Positions 2,373-55,480 of a stretch of 64,000 bases of DNA are shown one piece after another. The notes under the pieces were generated by a model. That model saw nothing but the letters and a program-made list of their open reading frames with translations. It searched no databases and was not told the origin of the DNA. A program made the position numbers and the translations under genes. The stretch covers positions 1 to 64,000 of the forward strand of contig JAJZAN010000004.1 of NCBI GenBank assembly GCA_021799435.1, given 5' to 3'. This stretch comes from Bacillota bacterium. GTDB taxonomy: Bacteria > Bacillota > Sulfobacillia > Sulfobacillales > Sulfobacillaceae. Position 1 is the stretch's first letter. Every line of letters starts with the position of its first letter.

Positions 2373-3035
2373 CTACGGTGATCGGCCCCATGCGGGCAAG
2401 CTATTAAGGGCTCTTGGCACCGACTGCTCAGGACTGAAATGGTGCAGTCCGGGAAGTGGAACATCCGGCTTTCCGGAAAAATCCCGCAGTACCAGAGGCC
2501 GCCCGAGCTGCTCTGCCAACTGGCTAAGGCGCCAGACGTCTTGAGGAGAGATACCGGCGGGCTGAAACCTGGGGTCTGAGGCGATAAGCCATGTCAAGGC
2601 GTTCCATCCGAAACTTTGCTGATCCAGCCAGATCGTATCGATGACCGTATCTAAGAGTGTCCTTAGGCTTGTCTCGGCCTGATGCAGGTTCAGGTCGTGA
2701 GGCCGTATCGCGACAAGCCGGACTAGTGGTCCGGTTTGCAAGGCGTGGTTCAACACGTCGAGGGCCGGATCCGCCAACCCTGTGGGCACCGAAATTTCAG
2801 CGGTGATGCCGATGGGTTTGGACCGTTTAGGGACTTTGGTCAGGCCGCGACAGTACCACTGCCCGCCACTGGTTGCCTGGATGGTCTCCTGAGACGGCCA
2901 AGGACCGGGGCTTTGGGAGATGATATGACCACGCCCTCGAAAGGACGAGAGGAATCGATGGGCCAGCCACGGACCGAAGGAAACATCCACGTTGGAAATG
3001 TCCAAGGTTGGGAGCCAGCACAGCGGTGTACTCAC
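2373..3035 (-). CDS. Hypothetical protein, translationally coupled to the upstream radical SAM gene
   Basis: GTG start at 3035 preceded by SD gggaggt and overlapping the TGA of the upstream gene (GTGA); no family recognised. Confidence 0.6.
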   Translation of the reverse strand: MSTPLCWLPTLDISNVDVSFGPWLAHRFLSSFRGRGHIISQSPGPWPSQETIQATSGGQWYCRGLTKVPKRSKPIGITAEISVPTGLADPALDVLNHALQTGPLVRLVAIRPHDLNLHQAETSLRTLLDTVIDTIWLDQQSFGWNALTWLIASDPRFQPAGISPQDVWRLSQLAEQLGRPLVLRDFSGKPDVPLPGLHHFSPEQSVPRALNSLPAWGRSP

Positions 3036-3856
3036 GGCAGCACCTCCCATATAGGTACTAGAACCCGCTCCGCGCCCGCAGACCCGAAGATGGCGTCGGT
3101 GTCCTCGGGTTCCTCAGCCCAATCCACGTAGACGGGGACCTCCGGCAGGTGCTGGCGCAGTTGGTTTACGGATGAAGCGGTGACCACCACGTTGGCATTG
3201 CCCAGAGCGCCCAGATGGGTTCCGTCACTCACCAGAGGCTTGACGTCGAGGTGGTGTGGTTTGACATCCTGAAGGACCTTGATGGAATCCGGCGACAATG
3301 AAAGTCCGGTTGGCGGAACCAGAATGCTCGCTGCAAACCGTAAGTCCGCTGCTCGAGCGGCGTCGGCCACCGTCAGCCACTCGGACTGGGTCAGGCGATA
3401 GGGGGCCCATTCCAGTGGAAGTCCGGACAGCCATAACTCCGCCCCGCCAGATCCCAGGAAATCTGCCCCAGCCCACTTTAAGAGACGCACCAGTTCACGG
3501 ACTGGGCGCCGCTCTTGGGTGTGGAAGTACCAGACTTCCACGGGGGAAAAGGCCATCAAAGGAGCCTGACTCAATTCTTTAATACGTCGAATCAGGTGCA
3601 GCCAATAGTCAAACGGCTCCTTGATGGACAGTCCGCCCCGCAGTTTCAGAAAGGCGGCGGCATCCCATGCGATGTCATCGGCTTGCAGTCGGTCTACACT
3701 CAGCCCCGGAGGCGCATCGGGCAGCGACATTCGCGGACTGGAGATGGCCAGCCGGCAAAAGGCACAGCCTGCCCAACACATCCGGCTGGTGGACAGACGG
3801 CCTACGGGTGTCAGGAGAGCCCGCTGCTCCGGCTCAAGGGAAAAGGAAACGGCCAT
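3032..3856 (-). CDS. Radical SAM protein resembling MqnC/MqnE (futalosine pathway)
   Basis: CWAGCAFC = CX3CX2C; LKLRGGLSIKEPFDYWLHLIRRIKELSQAPLMAFSPVEVWYF and LLKWAGADFLGSGGAEL match the layout of MqnC-type enzymes. Confidence 0.65.
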   Translation of the reverse strand: MAVSFSLEPEQRALLTPVGRLSTSRMCWAGCAFCRLAISSPRMSLPDAPPGLSVDRLQADDIAWDAAAFLKLRGGLSIKEPFDYWLHLIRRIKELSQAPLMAFSPVEVWYFHTQERRPVRELVRLLKWAGADFLGSGGAELWLSGLPLEWAPYRLTQSEWLTVADAARAADLRFAASILVPPTGLSLSPDSIKVLQDVKPHHLDVKPLVSDGTHLGALGNANVVVTASSVNQLRQHLPEVPVYVDWAEEPEDTDAIFGSAGAERVLVPIWEVLP

Positions 3857-3988
3857 GAGTCCTCCTCAACTAGATCTTGGTTTGTAGGTGACCATTCGAC
3901 ACCGTGTTCGGGGTCTCCTCCACAGATCGGTTTCATGAGTGTCTCGTGCCAGGCATAGCATGAAACAGGTTGGGACAGGAGGTTCGGA

Positions 3989-27929: not shown

Positions 27930-27999
27930 GAGGGCCGATGATGGCAATAATTTTGTGGCCGTGGCCCTCCCCGCCCTGACTGTTGGAGGGGTGACTCAA
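27930..27999 (+). promoter_or_regulatory. Candidate structured leader of the formate dehydrogenase operon
   Basis: GAGGGCC (27930-27936) can pair with GGCCCTC (27963-27969); the overlapping CCCTCC (27965-27970) can alternatively pair with the SD GGAGGG (27985-27990). Confidence 0.4.
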
Positions 28000-29916
28000 A
28001 TGGCAACAGCAGTACAAAAGCGCCGTGTTCGCCTGACGACACCATTGGTTCGCATCGACGGCGAGCTTAAGCCGGCGACGTGGGAGCAAGCATTGCGACG
28101 TGCCCAGGAATTGTTCCAGCCACTGATTTCGGAATCGAGCGGTGATGCCTTAGCCGTGTTCAGCTGCTCGAAATCAACGAACGAATTAAATTATTTGGCG
28201 TCTAAGTTTGCCCGGGCGGTATTCCGTACCAACAACGTGGATTCTTGCAACCGGACCTGACACGCTCCTTCGGTCGCGGGTCTCGCGGCTGTGTTTGGGA
28301 GCGGTGCCAGCACCAGTTCCTATGAGGAGTTTGAGAACACCGACCTCATTTTGTTGGTGGGGTCCAATGCGGCGGAAGCGCACCCGATTATCTTCCATCA
28401 CATGATGAAGGGCGTGCGCAAGGGGGCCACTTTGGTGGTGGTAGACCCGCGCCGCACGCTCACGACCAAGCGTGCCCACGAACATCTGCAAATCGCGGTG
28501 GGGAGCGACATCGCCCTGATAAATGCCATGATTCATGTCATTTTGCGGGACGGATTGGAGCACCGGGAGTTCATCAACCGTGCCACCAGCAATTTGGATG
28601 GGTTGAAGGCATCGGTTAAGGATTGGACTCCGGAGCGGGCGGAAGCCATTACGGGCATTGAGGCCTCTCGCATTGAGGCGGTTGCCCGGGCGTACGCACA
28701 GGCCCCGCGAGCCATGATTGGGTGGACCTTGGGCATCACGGAGCATCACAATGCGGTCGACAATGTCTTTGCCCTTATCAATCTGGCATTGGTGACCGGT
28801 CACGTGGGACGGTATGGATCGGGATTGAACCCTCTGCGGGGACAAAACAACGTCCAGGGAGGCGGCGACATGGGGTCGCTGCCCAATCGCTTGCCTGGAT
28901 TCCAGGACATTACTAATGCGGACGTGCGAGCGTCGTTTGAACGAGTGTGGGGTGTGCCTATCTCCGGAAAGCCTGGGTTGAACCAGTCGGAAATATTTGA
29001 GGGAATGGCCAACGGTACCGTACGGGGCCTCTATGTGATTGGCGAAAACCCGGTGGAGTCGGAAGCGAATCAGCACCACGTGCGACAACTATTCCAAGAT
29101 TTGGAAGTCCTGGTGGTGCAGGACATTTTCCTCACCTCCACGGGAGAACTTGCGGATGTGGTATTCCCGGCCCGGGTCTCGTTTGCGGAGAGCGCCGGAA
29201 CCTATACCAACAGCGAGCGCCGCGTGCAGTTGGTTCAACCAGCCCGGACAGCCCCGGGGGAAGCCCAAGACGACATCTGGATTATCACGCAGTTGGCCAA
29301 CGCCATGGGTGCCCAGTGGCCGATGTTGGATGCCGAAGGGGTCTTCGACGAGATGCGCCATCTGGCCCCCAATTTCCGTGGCATGACCTATGCCCGAATC
29401 CGCGAGCTGCACGGCTTGCAGTGGCCCTGTCCGGACGAATCACATCCTGGCACCCTGGTTCTGCACAGCCGTCTGTGGGACGACCAGGTTGCCGCCAAAG
29501 CGCCATTTCATGCGGTGGATTGGGATCCGCCGGTGGAGACGCCGGATGCCGATTATCCCTTCTTGTTGACGACCGGACGGCGTTTGGCCTTTTTCAACAC
29601 CGGTGTCCAGTCCAACGTCTATGACCATCCCCACAAGGTCGGTGAGTGGATGGAGATGAACCCGGCTGATGCCGACCGGCTTGGAGTTGACGACGGCGAC
29701 CTGGTCGAGGTCGGGTCGCGGCGCGGACAGTTAACCGTGGGCATTCGACGCTCGCATGCGGTTAAACCCGGAGTGGTGTTTTTAACTTTCCATTTCCCGG
29801 ATCATGTGAAGACCAACGTGCTGTCCATCGACGCCACTGACCCGAAGTCGGGAACAGCTGAATTTAAGGCGGCCGCCGTGCGGATCGCCAAAGCGGAGGC
29901 AAAGAATGCGGACTGA
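28000..29916 (+). CDS. Formate dehydrogenase catalytic (Mo/W-bisMGD) subunit, selenocysteine-containing, lacking the N-terminal Fe-S segment
   Basis: ORFs 27955-28260 and 28291-29916 are one frame; TGA 28258-28260 in context NNVDSCNRT(U)HAPSVAGL; SECIS-like hairpin directly downstream. Confidence 0.9.
28261..28303 (+). promoter_or_regulatory. Bacterial SECIS element
   Basis: CGCTCC(28263-28268)/GGAGCG(28298-28303) outer stem, GTCGCG(28273-28278)/CGCGGC(28284-28289) inner stem, apical loop GGTCT 18 nt after the TGA. Confidence 0.85.
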
Positions 29917-30325
29917 AACGGAGCAACAGGTGCGGTCCATCTTAGAAGGTATGCCCCGCGAGCGGGCCTCTCTCCTGCCTGCCTTGTGGACAGTGGTGGA
30001 CCAAATGGGTTGGGTTGACCAGGAGAGGATGGAAGCGGTGGCGGCCGTTTTGAATCTCCCGGTCGCCGACGTTTATGGCGTGGCGTCATTTTACGCCATG
30101 CTGCCATCCGACGGCCGCACCCAAGTTCGGGTGTGCGACGATGTGCTGTGCCATCTGGCGGGGAGTGAGCGCCTCCTGGACGCGGTGCGTGCACAAGGCT
30201 TGGACGCGGTGGCGTGGCCCTGCTTGGGGCGGTGCGATCAGGCACCGGCGGCGTTGGTCAACGCAAGTCCGGTGGTTCGGGCGACGGCCGAGAAGGTCCA
30301 GCGGGCCGCGCAGGGAGGGGAATGA
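29906..30325 (+). CDS. NuoE/FdsG-like 2Fe-2S subunit of formate dehydrogenase
   Basis: VCDDVLC ... PCLGRC cysteine pattern; GVASFYAML; operon position. Confidence 0.88.
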   Translation: MRTETEQQVRSILEGMPRERASLLPALWTVVDQMGWVDQERMEAVAAVLNLPVADVYGVASFYAMLPSDGRTQVRVCDDVLCHLAGSERLLDAVRAQGLDAVAWPCLGRCDQAPAALVNASPVVRATAEKVQRAAQGGE

Positions 30326-31545
30326 GCATGCGCGAATATCGATTGCTGCCGCCGGAGTCGGTTCGGTCGCATCCGGCCAGCTACGAACGCCTAGTGGAGA
30401 GGGGCTTCGAGCGAGCCCTGAACCGTACCCAGTCTTTGAGCCCGAAGACCATCATCCAGGAAGTGAGCGATGCGGGTATATTGGGCCGAGGGGGAGCCGC
30501 CTTTCCCACCGGACGCAAGTGGGCCAGTGTGGCCGAGGCGCCCTTTCGTCCCAAGTACGTGGTGATGAATGCGGACGAAAGCGAACCGGGTACCTTTAAG
30601 GACCGAGTGTTGTTGATGGATGACCCTCTGGGCGCGCTTACCGGAATGATTATTGCGGCACGGGCGGTGGGAGCCCACAAAGGGTACGTATACATTCGCG
30701 GGGAGTATCAGGATGTGGAGGCGCGGGTGGCGGAGGCGCTTCGGATGCTTGAGACGCGCGGATTTCTCGCCGATGGCCTGACCATTGAAATTCGGCGCGG
30801 TGCTGGCGCCTACATTGCAGGCGAAGAAACCGCGTTGTTCAATTCCATTGAAGGTCGGCGGCCAGAACCTCGCGTAAAGCCGCCCTTTCCCACCGTGCAC
30901 GGCTTATTCGGCAAACCCACGCTGATTCAGAACGTGGAGACATTGGCCAATGTCGCGGTGCTATTGAGCGAGAGCGTGCAGTGGTTTCGCGAAAAGGGCA
31001 CGGACAGGACGCCCGGCACCAAGCTGGTGTGCCTAAGCGGGGCTGTCCAAAACCCAGGGGTTTACGAAGTGGCCTTTGGGGTTCCCTTGAAAGAGATTCT
31101 GTTTTCTGAGGAACTGGGCGGCGGTCTGGCATCGGGGCGGGCGCTCCGGGCGGTCCTGTTGGGGGGGGCGGCCGGCACCTTTTTAACGCCGCAAGAGTTG
31201 GACGAGGTGCAGTACGACTACCCATCGCTGCGAAGCATCGGAGCCAGCATTGGCTCGGGAGCGGCCATGGTTTTTGACGACACGGTCGCGTTGGAAGACG
31301 TGTTGAAGCTCTTGGCGCACTTCTTCGCCGACGAGTCGTGTGGGCAGTGCGTGCCGTGCCGAGTGGGAACGCGGCGGATGATGGAGATTTTGGAGAGCCC
31401 CGATGGATTTGATGATGCCGAAAGGCTTCGGGATCTAGGCCGGGCCATGCAGGATGCGTCTATTTGTGGATTGGGCCAGACAGCACCCTTGGCACTATTG
31501 TCCTACATGGATCGACCGACTTTATGGAAAAGGAGTGCGGTCTGA
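30322..31545 (+). CDS. NuoF/FdsB-like NADH-binding FMN/4Fe-4S subunit
   Basis: GRGGAAFPTGRKW, NADESEPGTFKDR, GAGAYIAGEETALFNSIEGRR, ESCGQCVPCRVGT. Confidence 0.94.
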   Translation: MSMREYRLLPPESVRSHPASYERLVERGFERALNRTQSLSPKTIIQEVSDAGILGRGGAAFPTGRKWASVAEAPFRPKYVVMNADESEPGTFKDRVLLMDDPLGALTGMIIAARAVGAHKGYVYIRGEYQDVEARVAEALRMLETRGFLADGLTIEIRRGAGAYIAGEETALFNSIEGRRPEPRVKPPFPTVHGLFGKPTLIQNVETLANVAVLLSESVQWFREKGTDRTPGTKLVCLSGAVQNPGVYEVAFGVPLKEILFSEELGGGLASGRALRAVLLGGAAGTFLTPQELDEVQYDYPSLRSIGASIGSGAAMVFDDTVALEDVLKLLAHFFADESCGQCVPCRVGTRRMMEILESPDGFDDAERLRDLGRAMQDASICGLGQTAPLALLSYMDRPTLWKRSAV

Positions 31546-32393
31546 TGGCGGATATCACACTCACCATTGACGGTGTCCGGGTGACGGTTCCGGAAGGTAG
31601 TACCGTCCGGGAGGCCTGCGGGCAGTCGGGGGAGGCCCCGCCGGTTTTGTGCTTTCACGATAACTTGACACCAGCCAACGCTTGTCGCGCTTGTGTCGTG
31701 GAAGTAGAGGGCAGCCGGGCGCTGGTGGCGTCGTGCAGCCGCAAGGCCGAACAGGATATGGTGGTCCACACCCAGTCGGAGCGGGTGTTGAACGCCCGCC
31801 GGGTGGTCGGAGAACTTCTGGCCTCCACTTCCGATGTCAGCTTGGCTCCAGGGGTTCAGGACCTCCTCTCGCAGAACGCGGGCGATCCAGCTCGGTACCG
31901 TACCGGCGCCACCTGGGAGCAGCAGGTTTTGGATGACAATGGGCTTTACGTGCGGGACTATGCCAAATGCATTTTGTGCTACCGCTGTGTGGAAGCCTGT
32001 GGAGAGGATGCACAGAATACGTTTGCGATTACCGTGGCTGGGCGAGGATTTGAAGCGCACATTGACGCGGGTTTTGGACGGTCTATGCCGGATTCGGACT
32101 GCGTGTTCTGCGGCAACTGCGTGGCGGTCTGTCCTACGGGAGCGCTTATCGATCGATCCGAATATACACTTCGTCAGACGGGGGCGTGGCAGGAGGAGGC
32201 TGTCAGCACCACGGAGACGGTCTGCTCGTATTGCGGAGTCGGCTGTGACTTGGAGCTTCATGTGCTCGACAATCGGATCGTAAAGGTTACCTCGCCCATG
32301 GATCATCCGGTTACGCATGGAATGTTGTGCGTCAAGGGACGGTACGCCTACCAGTACGTGCAGATCGAGGACGAAATGCCAGAACGCGCGTAA
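31545..32393 (+). CDS. Formate dehydrogenase N-terminal module as a separate protein (NuoG-like 2Fe-2S, 2x[4Fe-4S] and Mo-enzyme 4Fe-4S segment)
   Basis: CFHDNLTPANACRACVVEV, CILCYRCVEAC, CVFCGNCVAVCPTGAL, then ETVCSYCGVGCDLELHV...GMLCVKGRYAYQYV and stop. Confidence 0.92.
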   Translation: MADITLTIDGVRVTVPEGSTVREACGQSGEAPPVLCFHDNLTPANACRACVVEVEGSRALVASCSRKAEQDMVVHTQSERVLNARRVVGELLASTSDVSLAPGVQDLLSQNAGDPARYRTGATWEQQVLDDNGLYVRDYAKCILCYRCVEACGEDAQNTFAITVAGRGFEAHIDAGFGRSMPDSDCVFCGNCVAVCPTGALIDRSEYTLRQTGAWQEEAVSTTETVCSYCGVGCDLELHVLDNRIVKVTSPMDHPVTHGMLCVKGRYAYQYVQIEDEMPERA

Positions 32394-53084: not shown

Positions 53085-53801
53085 TCAGCGATGGACAAGA
53101 TAAATGATGTCCTGTCCATGCTTGCGCTCCAGCCCTGTCTGTCGAAATCGCTGCTGTGCTAACCCTGCTAAGGCGGTGGAAACCGGTATGGGCATTTCTC
53201 CCAGCACGTAGCAGATGACTCGGTCGACAGCTGGGCGCGCGGCAATGGGCGAAATAGGGGCGGCAGGTTCCTGCCATTCCCAACCCATGTCTTCTCGAAT
53301 CCCGTCCCATGGCATGAGAAGCCAGGAGACGGGACTTTCGTGCTCCAACAGGCGTGCCAAGTTGTCGAGTCGAACCGACTGGCCCTGGGCTGCCACCAAC
53401 ATGCGGCAGTTCTCGGGGGCACTATGATATCTGGCCAACTTGTCCCGCCAATCGTCGGCTGATTCACTGCCGGTGTCTACCTCGAGCGCGATAATCCCCG
53501 GTTGATTTGCGAGGGTTAGAAGCGCATCGGGGCGGAATGGGTCATCCATGGACCATTGCGTGGTCCATGATTGCAACACGGGTACGAGGCGGCAATAGAC
53601 CTCAGCGCGCAGTTCGGCGTGGCGTCGGTGGCTCCCTTTGTGAAAACGGCGGGCATCCCAGAGTGCCCCGCGGTACCACAGGAACCAACGTTCCTGGGGG
53701 AGTGTGTCGCGGGTCGCTCCGAAGTACGCGGCCAGTTGTTCTTGCGAGAGAAAGCCGGTGTCCTTGAGCGCTTGCACGACATCAAATTGCGTGGGCACCA
53801 C
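53085..53801 (-). CDS. Replication-relaxation-like protein
   Basis: HRRHAELRAEVYCRLVPVLQSW...FRPDALLTLANQPGIIALEVDTGSESADDWRDKLARYH; overlaps the coupling protein gene. Confidence 0.6.
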   Translation of the reverse strand: MVPTQFDVVQALKDTGFLSQEQLAAYFGATRDTLPQERWFLWYRGALWDARRFHKGSHRRHAELRAEVYCRLVPVLQSWTTQWSMDDPFRPDALLTLANQPGIIALEVDTGSESADDWRDKLARYHSAPENCRMLVAAQGQSVRLDNLARLLEHESPVSWLLMPWDGIREDMGWEWQEPAAPISPIAARPAVDRVICYVLGEMPIPVSTALAGLAQQRFRQTGLERKHGQDIIYLVHR

Positions 53802-55263
53802 CTCCTCCGAGGGGATGATGAGGCAAATGCACTAAAATGGGCCGATTCAAGGAGCCGCGGCGGTTTAATTGCACCATGGCTTGGCCCCGCGGCAAATAGC
53901 GGACTGGCCGAGCTGGCAGGTAGGGCGCGGCTTGATGCAAAAAGCGATCTATGTCGTCCGCGGCCGTACCGCCCAGAATGATGCGCTGCCGTGCGTTGGC
54001 GGTAACCGCTTCGGCGAGCGCAGGACTTAATTGACCCATGTCTTGGTGCGCCAAGACGAGTCCGACCCGGTATCCGCGTGCTAGGGCAAGAAAGTCGGAC
54101 AAGTCCTCCGACACCCATTGATGAAATTCGTCGAGGTACAAGAAAGCGGGAGGATTGTCGTGGGCGGGATTGCGGCCATAGGCGGCCTGGGCAAGCCCGT
54201 GCCAGAGGAGAGAGCCGAGTGCTCTCGCGGTGGCCCCCAATTCCGCCAAGGGCAGGGTGCAGAGTACAACCCACCGGTCGTCCAAGACCTCTTTCCACGT
54301 GAAGTCGCCCACGCCCGTGAGAACGCGGCGAACATCGGGATTGGCCCACAGCAGTTCGAGGCGGTTGACGAGCCCTTGGCGATCCTCGCGGCTTGATCCT
54401 GAGCGCCTCGCCCATTGCTCACGAAAGTACTGCTGGGCGGCTTGGTCACCGGAGGCCTGCACGATTTGCTTTTGGATCCGGTCGTCGCGCAGAAAGGTGA
54501 GAAGTGTGCCTAAGTCTGCGTCGGCAGGGTTCGCCGCCTTGATGGCCCTCACACTGTGCAGCAGCATGATGCGAGCGGCCACGCGGTAATACGGGTGACC
54601 GCCGTCGCTAAGCTGGTCCAAGCACCAGGCGATACCTTCCGCAACCTGGCTGGCAGGACCATCCAGCGGGTTATAGTGTGGGCATGAAGGTTCCGCGGGA
54701 TTAACACGGATAATTCGGCGGCCGCTCTCACGCGCGACGCGATAGGCCGCGTCAGCCAAATCGCCCTTGGGATCCATCAGCACCAAGCCGTGGCCCATGC
54801 GAATATCCTGCGCTGCGAGCGGCATGAGCACGGAGGATGACTTTCCGGAACCCGTGGGGCCCAGCACATGGCAATGCAAAAATCGGTCCTCAGTGGTTAG
54901 CCGAACCGGCCATAACCAGCCCAGGCGCCGTCCCAGCAATGTGTTGGCATCCCCGGGACGAGCCATGATGAGGGCCATGCTGCCCACCGCCGCAGCACAA
55001 AGGGGGACAATCAGCCACGGATGCCAAGCGGCCAGGAGGCCGCCTGCGGCTAGAGCGGAAAGCCCAGCGGCTCGGAGGGTCCGGATCCACAGGGCGCGGA
55101 GAGATATCACCACTGTCGCAAGTGCCACGAGCCATGTGAGTCCGGCACTGCCGCCGCTGACCAGACGGGCTAGGGCGTCGAGCCAAAGCACAGACGCCAA
55201 ATATCCGAGCACGATTGCGCTGCCCCAAGCCACAAGTTGTTCGCGGTATGGGCGCATCGGCAT
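53782..55263 (-). CDS. Type IV conjugative coupling protein (VirD4/TraG-like)
   Basis: N-terminal TMs, HVLGPTGSGKSSSVLMPL Walker A, DPKGDL, FLYLDEFHQW Walker B; ATG ~55263. Confidence 0.88.
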   Translation of the reverse strand: MPMRPYREQLVAWGSAIVLGYLASVLWLDALARLVSGGSAGLTWLVALATVVISLRALWIRTLRAAGLSALAAGGLLAAWHPWLIVPLCAAAVGSMALIMARPGDANTLLGRRLGWLWPVRLTTEDRFLHCHVLGPTGSGKSSSVLMPLAAQDIRMGHGLVLMDPKGDLADAAYRVARESGRRIIRVNPAEPSCPHYNPLDGPASQVAEGIAWCLDQLSDGGHPYYRVAARIMLLHSVRAIKAANPADADLGTLLTFLRDDRIQKQIVQASGDQAAQQYFREQWARRSGSSREDRQGLVNRLELLWANPDVRRVLTGVGDFTWKEVLDDRWVVLCTLPLAELGATARALGSLLWHGLAQAAYGRNPAHDNPPAFLYLDEFHQWVSEDLSDFLALARGYRVGLVLAHQDMGQLSPALAEAVTANARQRIILGGTAADDIDRFLHQAAPYLPARPVRYLPRGQAMVQLNRRGSLNRPILVHLPHHPLGGGGAHAI

Positions 55264-55319
55264 CACCTTCTTAGGAAAGTCGATTCGTGGTCCCCTGGAG
55301 GAATCCTGCTTTTGACACC

Positions 55320-55480
55320 AATTTTCGGAGCCTTCGACAACAGGGGTCATGATACATCGAGCCTTCCGATCAGATTGGCCGGTTTCCCCTTGCATGGCTT
55401 GCCGTGCCATAGCTTCGTGTCTGATGCGGGGTCATGGCCCCGACCAGCTTCATACATGCGTCGACAAGGAAACCCCTTAA
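55320..55480. other. Candidate structured non-coding element
   Basis: GGTTTCC(cc)TTG (55381-) complementary to CAAGGAAACC (~55465-) enclosing ATGGC...GCCAT and CGGGG...CCCCG hairpins; no credible ORF. Confidence 0.4.

Follow-up and report, generated by a model that had tools for sequence, protein, structure and literature searches.

The question raised by this locus is whether two neighbouring ORFs, parted by a TGA, are the remains of a broken gene or together form a single selenoprotein gene, and, in the latter case, what kind of enzyme the gene would serve. We refer to the whole stretch of DNA that was analysed, 64,000 nucleotides long, as the window. The two ORFs, at 27955-28260 (101 aa) and 28291-29916 (541 aa), share one frame, with the TGA at 28258-28260 between them. 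The analysis led to the following features.

28000 to 29916, + strand: predicted catalytic (molybdopterin) subunit of a formate dehydrogenase (FDH), 638 aa, without the Fe4S4 domain; PF00384 and PF01568, TIGR01591 positions 49-672, AF2 pLDDT 85 with FDH fold matches.
28258 to 28260, + strand: predicted Sec codon, TGA, the same in 101 of 101 distinct split-type homologues.
28273 to 28289, + strand: apical SECIS stem-loop, GTCGCG-GGTCT-CGCGGC; SECIS_3 E=1e-7, covariation ranks 1, 3 and 11 of 2,415, silent-site ranks 1 and 2 of 86.
29906 to 30325, + strand: NuoE/FdsG-like [2Fe-2S] thioredoxin-fold subunit (PF01257); its start overlaps the end of the catalytic gene by 11 nt.
30322 to 31545, + strand: NuoF/FdsB-like FMN and [4Fe-4S] subunit (PF01512, PF10589; TIGR01959, 387.5 bits), with an ATGA overlap with the preceding gene.
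31545 to 32393, + strand: iron-sulfur subunit, 282 aa and 30.5 kDa, with [2Fe-2S], two ferredoxin [4Fe-4S] motifs and a C-terminal Molybdop_Fe4S4 domain (PF13510, Fer4, PF04879).
32211 to 32363, + strand: detached Fe4S4 domain, CX2CX3CX27C-V-K-G, predicted to hold the proximal cluster and to be equivalent to FdsA A1; motif in 80 of 80 complete homologous genes.

When UGA is read as Sec, the stretch from 28000 to 29916 yields a protein of 638 aa and 69.85 kDa in which Sec is residue 87. The translation around the TGA is TNNVDSCNRT-U-HAPSVAGLAAVFGSG, which from the Sec onward opens U-HAPSVAGL. A Shine-Dalgarno-like GGAGG lies upstream of the ATG at 28000, so this position is the likely start. 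The first-pass annotation had described two ORFs separated by an in-frame TGA, and this is confirmed by the shared frame and the intact 638-aa readthrough product. Its warning about misannotation was also borne out, in that a table-11 gene caller gives two ORFs where one gene stands.

For comparison, we collected homologues from 61 related genomes and from one genome per species for 84,980 species, which gave 126 loci, 109 of them distinct. These consist of 101 loci of the same type as the window, called split here because the Fe4S4 domain lies in another gene, and 8 fused relatives. The Sec codon column is TGA in all 101 split-type loci, which were selected for their resemblance to the window protein, by search patterns that did not include the Sec site. 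As expected of a bacterial selenoprotein, the in-frame UGA falls at a redox position that is conserved as Cys or Sec. Six of the 8 fused relatives have Cys (TGC or TGT) there, and the nearest of the eight (L094) has Sec. Columns 87 (Sec), 88 (His) and 280 (Arg) are invariant in an alignment of 36 sequences. The earlier proposal that the TGA occupies the Sec position of fdhF-type enzymes thus agrees with the homologues. From alignment with solved FDHs, Arg280 is the predicted equivalent of the catalytic Arg.

A hairpin follows the TGA at once. It consists of GTCGCG (28273-28278), the loop GGTCT (28279-28283) and CGCGGC (28284-28289), and the distance from TGA to loop is exactly 18 nt. A folding energy of -24.5 kcal/mol is computed for the 49 nt from the TGA onward, and none of 200 shuffles folds as well (z -3.25). 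The first-pass annotation had suggested a covariance-model check, which we ran with Rfam. In E-value mode, SECIS_3 matches the hairpin with 38.7 bits (E=1e-7), but this is below the gathering score of 63, and a default scan at the gathering threshold therefore reports no match over the hairpin. The 18-nt spacing and the GGUCU loop are also those of the SECIS_2 consensus, which is E. coli-like, in agreement with what the first-pass annotation states for E. coli fdhF.

We assessed conservation of the hairpin over the 101 sequences, numbering positions with the T of TGA as 1. All six apical pairs (16-32, 17-31, 18-30, 19-29, 20-28 and 21-27) are formed in 100% of the sequences. Among 2,415 column pairs, the strongest covariation is that of pair 21-27 (C-G in 71, G-C in 28), while 18-30 ranks third and 20-28 eleventh. 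The loop is GGTCT in 97 of the 101 loci. Silent variation was also compared over the 86 conserved four-fold degenerate codons of the gene as a whole. It is lowest at G94 and V92: the former is the loop's GGT in 96%, although GGT accounts for 13% of the Gly codons in the genes compared, and the latter is GTC in 93%. The residues flanking the loop (V or A before, A or T after) occur as A-A (49), V-A (33) and V-T (18), and never as A-T, which would disrupt pair 20-28 (hypergeometric 1e-6, a value that ignores relatedness). By this pattern, the protein sequence itself follows the hairpin at these residues.

An outer stem, CGCTCC/GGAGCG, was part of the hairpin as first described, and it does form in the window sequence. 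We rejected it as an element of the conserved SECIS, since most of its pairs are kept in only 17-69% of homologues: pairs 8-44 and 10-42 in 17-20%, and pairs 7-45, 9-43 and 12-40 in 56-69%. Pairs 6-46 and 11-41 are always formed and involve protein-constrained bases. The apical stem and its GGTCT loop at 18 nt are upheld by covariation and silent sites, and judging from these comparisons, selection is demonstrable for the apical stem-loop only. As a separate observation, four of the 101 loci (L068, L069, L140 and L186) have GGGCT in place of the GGTCT loop. Two genomes with this loop (G024 and G026) have selA, selB and selD, while tRNA-Sec is not over the Rfam cut-off; both are draft genomes, and the coincidence may be due to chance.

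Reading UGA as Sec also calls for dedicated machinery, and the absence of selA, selB, selC and selD had been named beforehand as the result that would speak against it. All four were found in the source genome (G000, 90% complete), over curated cut-offs: selA (C31, 553.5 bits), selB (C135, 354.6 bits), selD (C199, 366.3 bits) and tRNA-Sec (C169, 70.1 bits), the last with anticodon TCA according to ARAGORN. A second match to RF01852 over the cut-off (C179) was rejected as a tRNA-Sec because ARAGORN identifies it as tRNA-Cys. The selD gene itself (L102; locus positions ~3001-3933) has an in-frame TGA, MTSKSG-U-GCKLGP. This is the second Sec codon of the genome, and selenophosphate synthetase would itself contain Sec. 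Two members of the family, G010 and G019 (96-97% complete), have no such FDH, and none of selA, selB, selD and tRNA-Sec is over the cut-off in them. In other phyla, selA was found in 30 of 30 genomes that carry the gene, in 29 over the cut-off and in one as two adjacent pieces.

It could still be argued that the TGA is a true stop, or a miscalled TGC or TGT, and that both ORFs are pseudogene remnants, as their separate calling under table 11 would suggest. Neither a sequencing error nor a decaying pseudogene is compatible with TGA in 101 of 101 distinct, independent homologues; in addition, the hairpin covaries, its silent sites are constrained, the genome has complete Sec machinery, and the remaining frame is intact and conserved. 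We regard the probability of this explanation as negligible. The comparisons support TGA 28258-28260 as the in-frame Sec codon of one intact gene, as opposed to a pseudogene.

The label fdhF-type is imprecise for this protein, which would correspond to an FdsA-like, NAD-linked FDH in its molybdopterin portion only, the Fe4S4 domain being encoded by a different gene of the operon. In a domain search, the catalytic protein gave PF00384 and PF01568 and no Fe4S4 domain PF04879. It scores 653.8 bits against TIGR01591 and misses the cut-off of 666.25 because the first 48 positions of the model are absent. Positions 1-53 of TIGR01591 match the C-terminus of the protein encoded at 31545-32393, behind a HoxU/NuoG-like region. 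The two proteins together tile Rhodobacter FdsA (6tg9) without a gap, the iron-sulfur protein covering 23-308 and the catalytic protein 308-935, which places the break at ~308. The AF2 model of the catalytic chain (pTM 0.83) has FDHs as its top fold matches; with TM-scores of 0.88-0.91 on the query, these are M. extorquens FDH1, E. coli FdhH and Rhodobacter FDHs. The solved FDH chains in the PDB that match the catalytic protein best align to it only from their residue 57 or later; these chains have room for an Fe4S4 domain and, judged by family, carry one in the same chain. The AF2 model of the iron-sulfur subunit (pLDDT 68, ferredoxin part weak) was left unused.

The same arrangement is seen in the homologues. 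A complete iron-sulfur gene is present in the sequence examined for 80 of the 101 split-type loci, and the other 21 comprise 6 cut by a contig end and 15 with no iron-sulfur gene in the stretch examined. All 80 have CX2CX3CXnC[VI]KG, and 76 end 10-25 residues past this motif. In a tree with the 8 fused relatives, a branch with SH-aLRT support of 100% separates all 84 split rows used from the fused ones. This supports, without proving, a single origin of the split, in a tree whose sample was picked by similarity to the window protein. Record titles assign the carriers to about nine phyla (Bacillota, Chloroflexota, Acidobacteriota, Actinomycetota, Gemmatimonadota, Planctomycetota, Rokuibacteriota, Myxococcota and Pseudomonadota), although most carriers are MAGs, in which binning errors are possible, and Pseudomonadota is represented by one MAG. 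By the same titles, they are mostly acid-mine, soil and groundwater bacteria.

The clusters can be predicted from cysteines. Sixteen are invariant in the iron-sulfur subunit (36, 47, 50, 64; 142, 145, 148, 152; 186, 189, 192, 196; 227, 230, 234, 262), and they would fit one [2Fe-2S] and three [4Fe-4S] clusters. The motif HX3CX2CX5C, which binds the His-ligated cluster A4 in FdsA, occurs in 0 of 30 split-clade iron-sulfur subunits and in 7 of the 8 fused relatives. In the R. capsulatus FDH, the direct path is Mo-A1-A2-A3-A5-B6-FMN, and A4 lies off this path at the dimer interface, where it may connect the two protomers (PMC7171172). Because the direct-path motifs are present and the missing one belongs to a cluster off the path, we predict that the direct chain is complete and that the bridge between protomers is lost. 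The split, the Sec codon and the loss of A4 are, as far as these motifs indicate, conserved features of a single clade that spans about nine phyla.

Four genes make up the operon, with the NuoE-like and NuoF-like genes between the two FDH halves. All three junctions overlap (by 11 nt, ATGA and TGATG, the last at the start of the iron-sulfur gene), which suggests translational coupling. Only a ribosome that has read through UGA 28258 arrives at the first overlap; if the genes are coupled, the operon would therefore depend on Sec decoding. On this basis, the UGA could double as a selenium switch, giving an 86-aa product at low selenium, and the full enzyme and the downstream subunits mainly with selenium. 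Since the argument for coupling is the overlaps alone, we put this forward tentatively and consider it rather doubtful; it would add to the explanation preferred here and not replace it.

Some further observations concern copy number and the rest of the window. In several genomes of the Sulfobacillus family, the catalytic gene of the split Sec-FDH is present in two or three copies that have diverged from each other: G005 (L065, L095, L096), G014 (L075, L077), G026 (L069, L097) and G029 (L076, L098). The ~16-kb stretch examined around the copy L098 contains neither a NuoE or NuoF gene nor an iron-sulfur gene. Within the window, 53782-55410 (- strand) partially matches PF02534, a type IV secretion conjugative DNA-transfer family, and 56416-57243 matches a phage family of unknown function; the right part of the window is possibly an integrated mobile element.

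The Sec codon, the SECIS, the Sec machinery, the split with its conservation and the cluster motifs were all established computationally. Taken together, they make it very probable that the four genes encode a soluble, Sec-containing, NAD+-linked FDH whose FdsA-type alpha subunit is divided between two polypeptides. Formate as substrate and NAD+ as acceptor are assigned by homology only, and from the same kind of evidence we infer the chain assembly, the electron path and a cytoplasmic enzyme with its proximal cluster supplied in trans. SelB, selenocysteyl-tRNA(UCA) and the in-message hairpin would decode UGA 28258 as Sec. Sec87 would coordinate the Mo (or W) of a bis-PGD site where, with His88 and Arg280, formate is bound and oxidised. 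Two electrons would pass to the metal and then singly across the subunit interface to the proximal [4Fe-4S] cluster, which the protein encoded at 31545-32393 would hold in its C-terminal domain. FdhH has a conserved Lys between pterin and cluster, and the Lys of C[VI]KG, here given in trans, is expected to occupy this place as in other FDHs. The onward route would be through the ferredoxin clusters, the [2Fe-2S] cluster and the FMN of the NuoF-like subunit to NAD+. As a general consideration, formate oxidation might give an acidophilic host both a source of reductant and a means to remove a toxic weak acid.

NuoE- and NuoF-like modules occur in bifurcating hydrogenases and FDHs as well, and the iron-sulfur subunit resembles the N-terminus of the NADH-dependent [FeFe] hydrogenase A6. 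These similarities would also accord with an electron-bifurcating or ferredoxin-linked CO2 reductase instead of a plain NAD+-linked FDH. However, the NuoF-like protein has FMN, SLBB and NADH_4Fe-4S domains only, with no extra ferredoxin domains, the operon has no hydrogenase gene, and the habitats in the record titles also count against a CO2 reductase. We therefore consider it improbable and retain the NAD+-linked FDH.

Searches of the open-access full-text literature yielded no account of the split or its clade, and neither is found by keyword in a 2026 selenoproteome review (PMC13188914). We lean towards the view that the enzyme represents an undescribed class of NAD-linked FDH, distributed over about nine phyla and always Sec-dependent as sampled, in which the proximal cluster and the Lys would come in trans from a HoxU-like subunit and A4 has been lost. 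Annotation of the Sec gene easily goes wrong: gene callers split it, Rfam by default misses its SECIS, and the curated FDH model scores it just under the cut-off. As a result, counts of the enzyme in soil, groundwater and acid-mine genomes are probably too low. The clade makes it possible to test Sec-dependent formate oxidation as a trait in several phyla. More can be learned from the split than from the Sec gene; because the catalytic chains of the FDHs found as PDB matches hold their own proximal cluster, the split clade would be a natural test of a cluster in trans and of the role of A4.

Putative cytoplasmic Sec-containing FDHs beside NuoEFG-like genes have been reported in all Sulfobacillus genomes (Justice et al. 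2014, PMC4378227). The window resembles these in genus group (its closest named relative is S. harzensis, 81%), in its predicted cytoplasmic Sec-FDH and in its NuoEFG-like neighbours, so the Sec finding is already known for the group; the FDH passage of that paper makes no mention of a split alpha subunit, a SECIS or a spread to other phyla. FdsABG of Rhodobacter capsulatus (6tg9/6tga, PMC7171172) is alike in modules: a catalytic domain, an N-terminal part with [2Fe-2S] and [4Fe-4S] clusters, and NuoF-like and NuoE-like subunits. In contrast to the single chain of FdsA, the alpha subunit of the window is encoded by two genes in reversed order; it would have Sec for Cys, and it lacks the A4 motif. 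E. coli FdhF (FDH-H) shares the Sec-His active site, the 18-nt spacing, the GGUCU loop and the fold (TM 0.89-0.91), but it has its own Fe4S4 domain, and its lower SECIS stem has no conserved counterpart in the split clade. Formylmethanofuran dehydrogenase FwdB/FwdD is a related molybdopterin enzyme that is likewise divided over two polypeptides, but there the cut lies at the C-terminal dinucleotide-binding domain, whereas in the enzyme of the window it lies at the N-terminal Fe4S4 domain.
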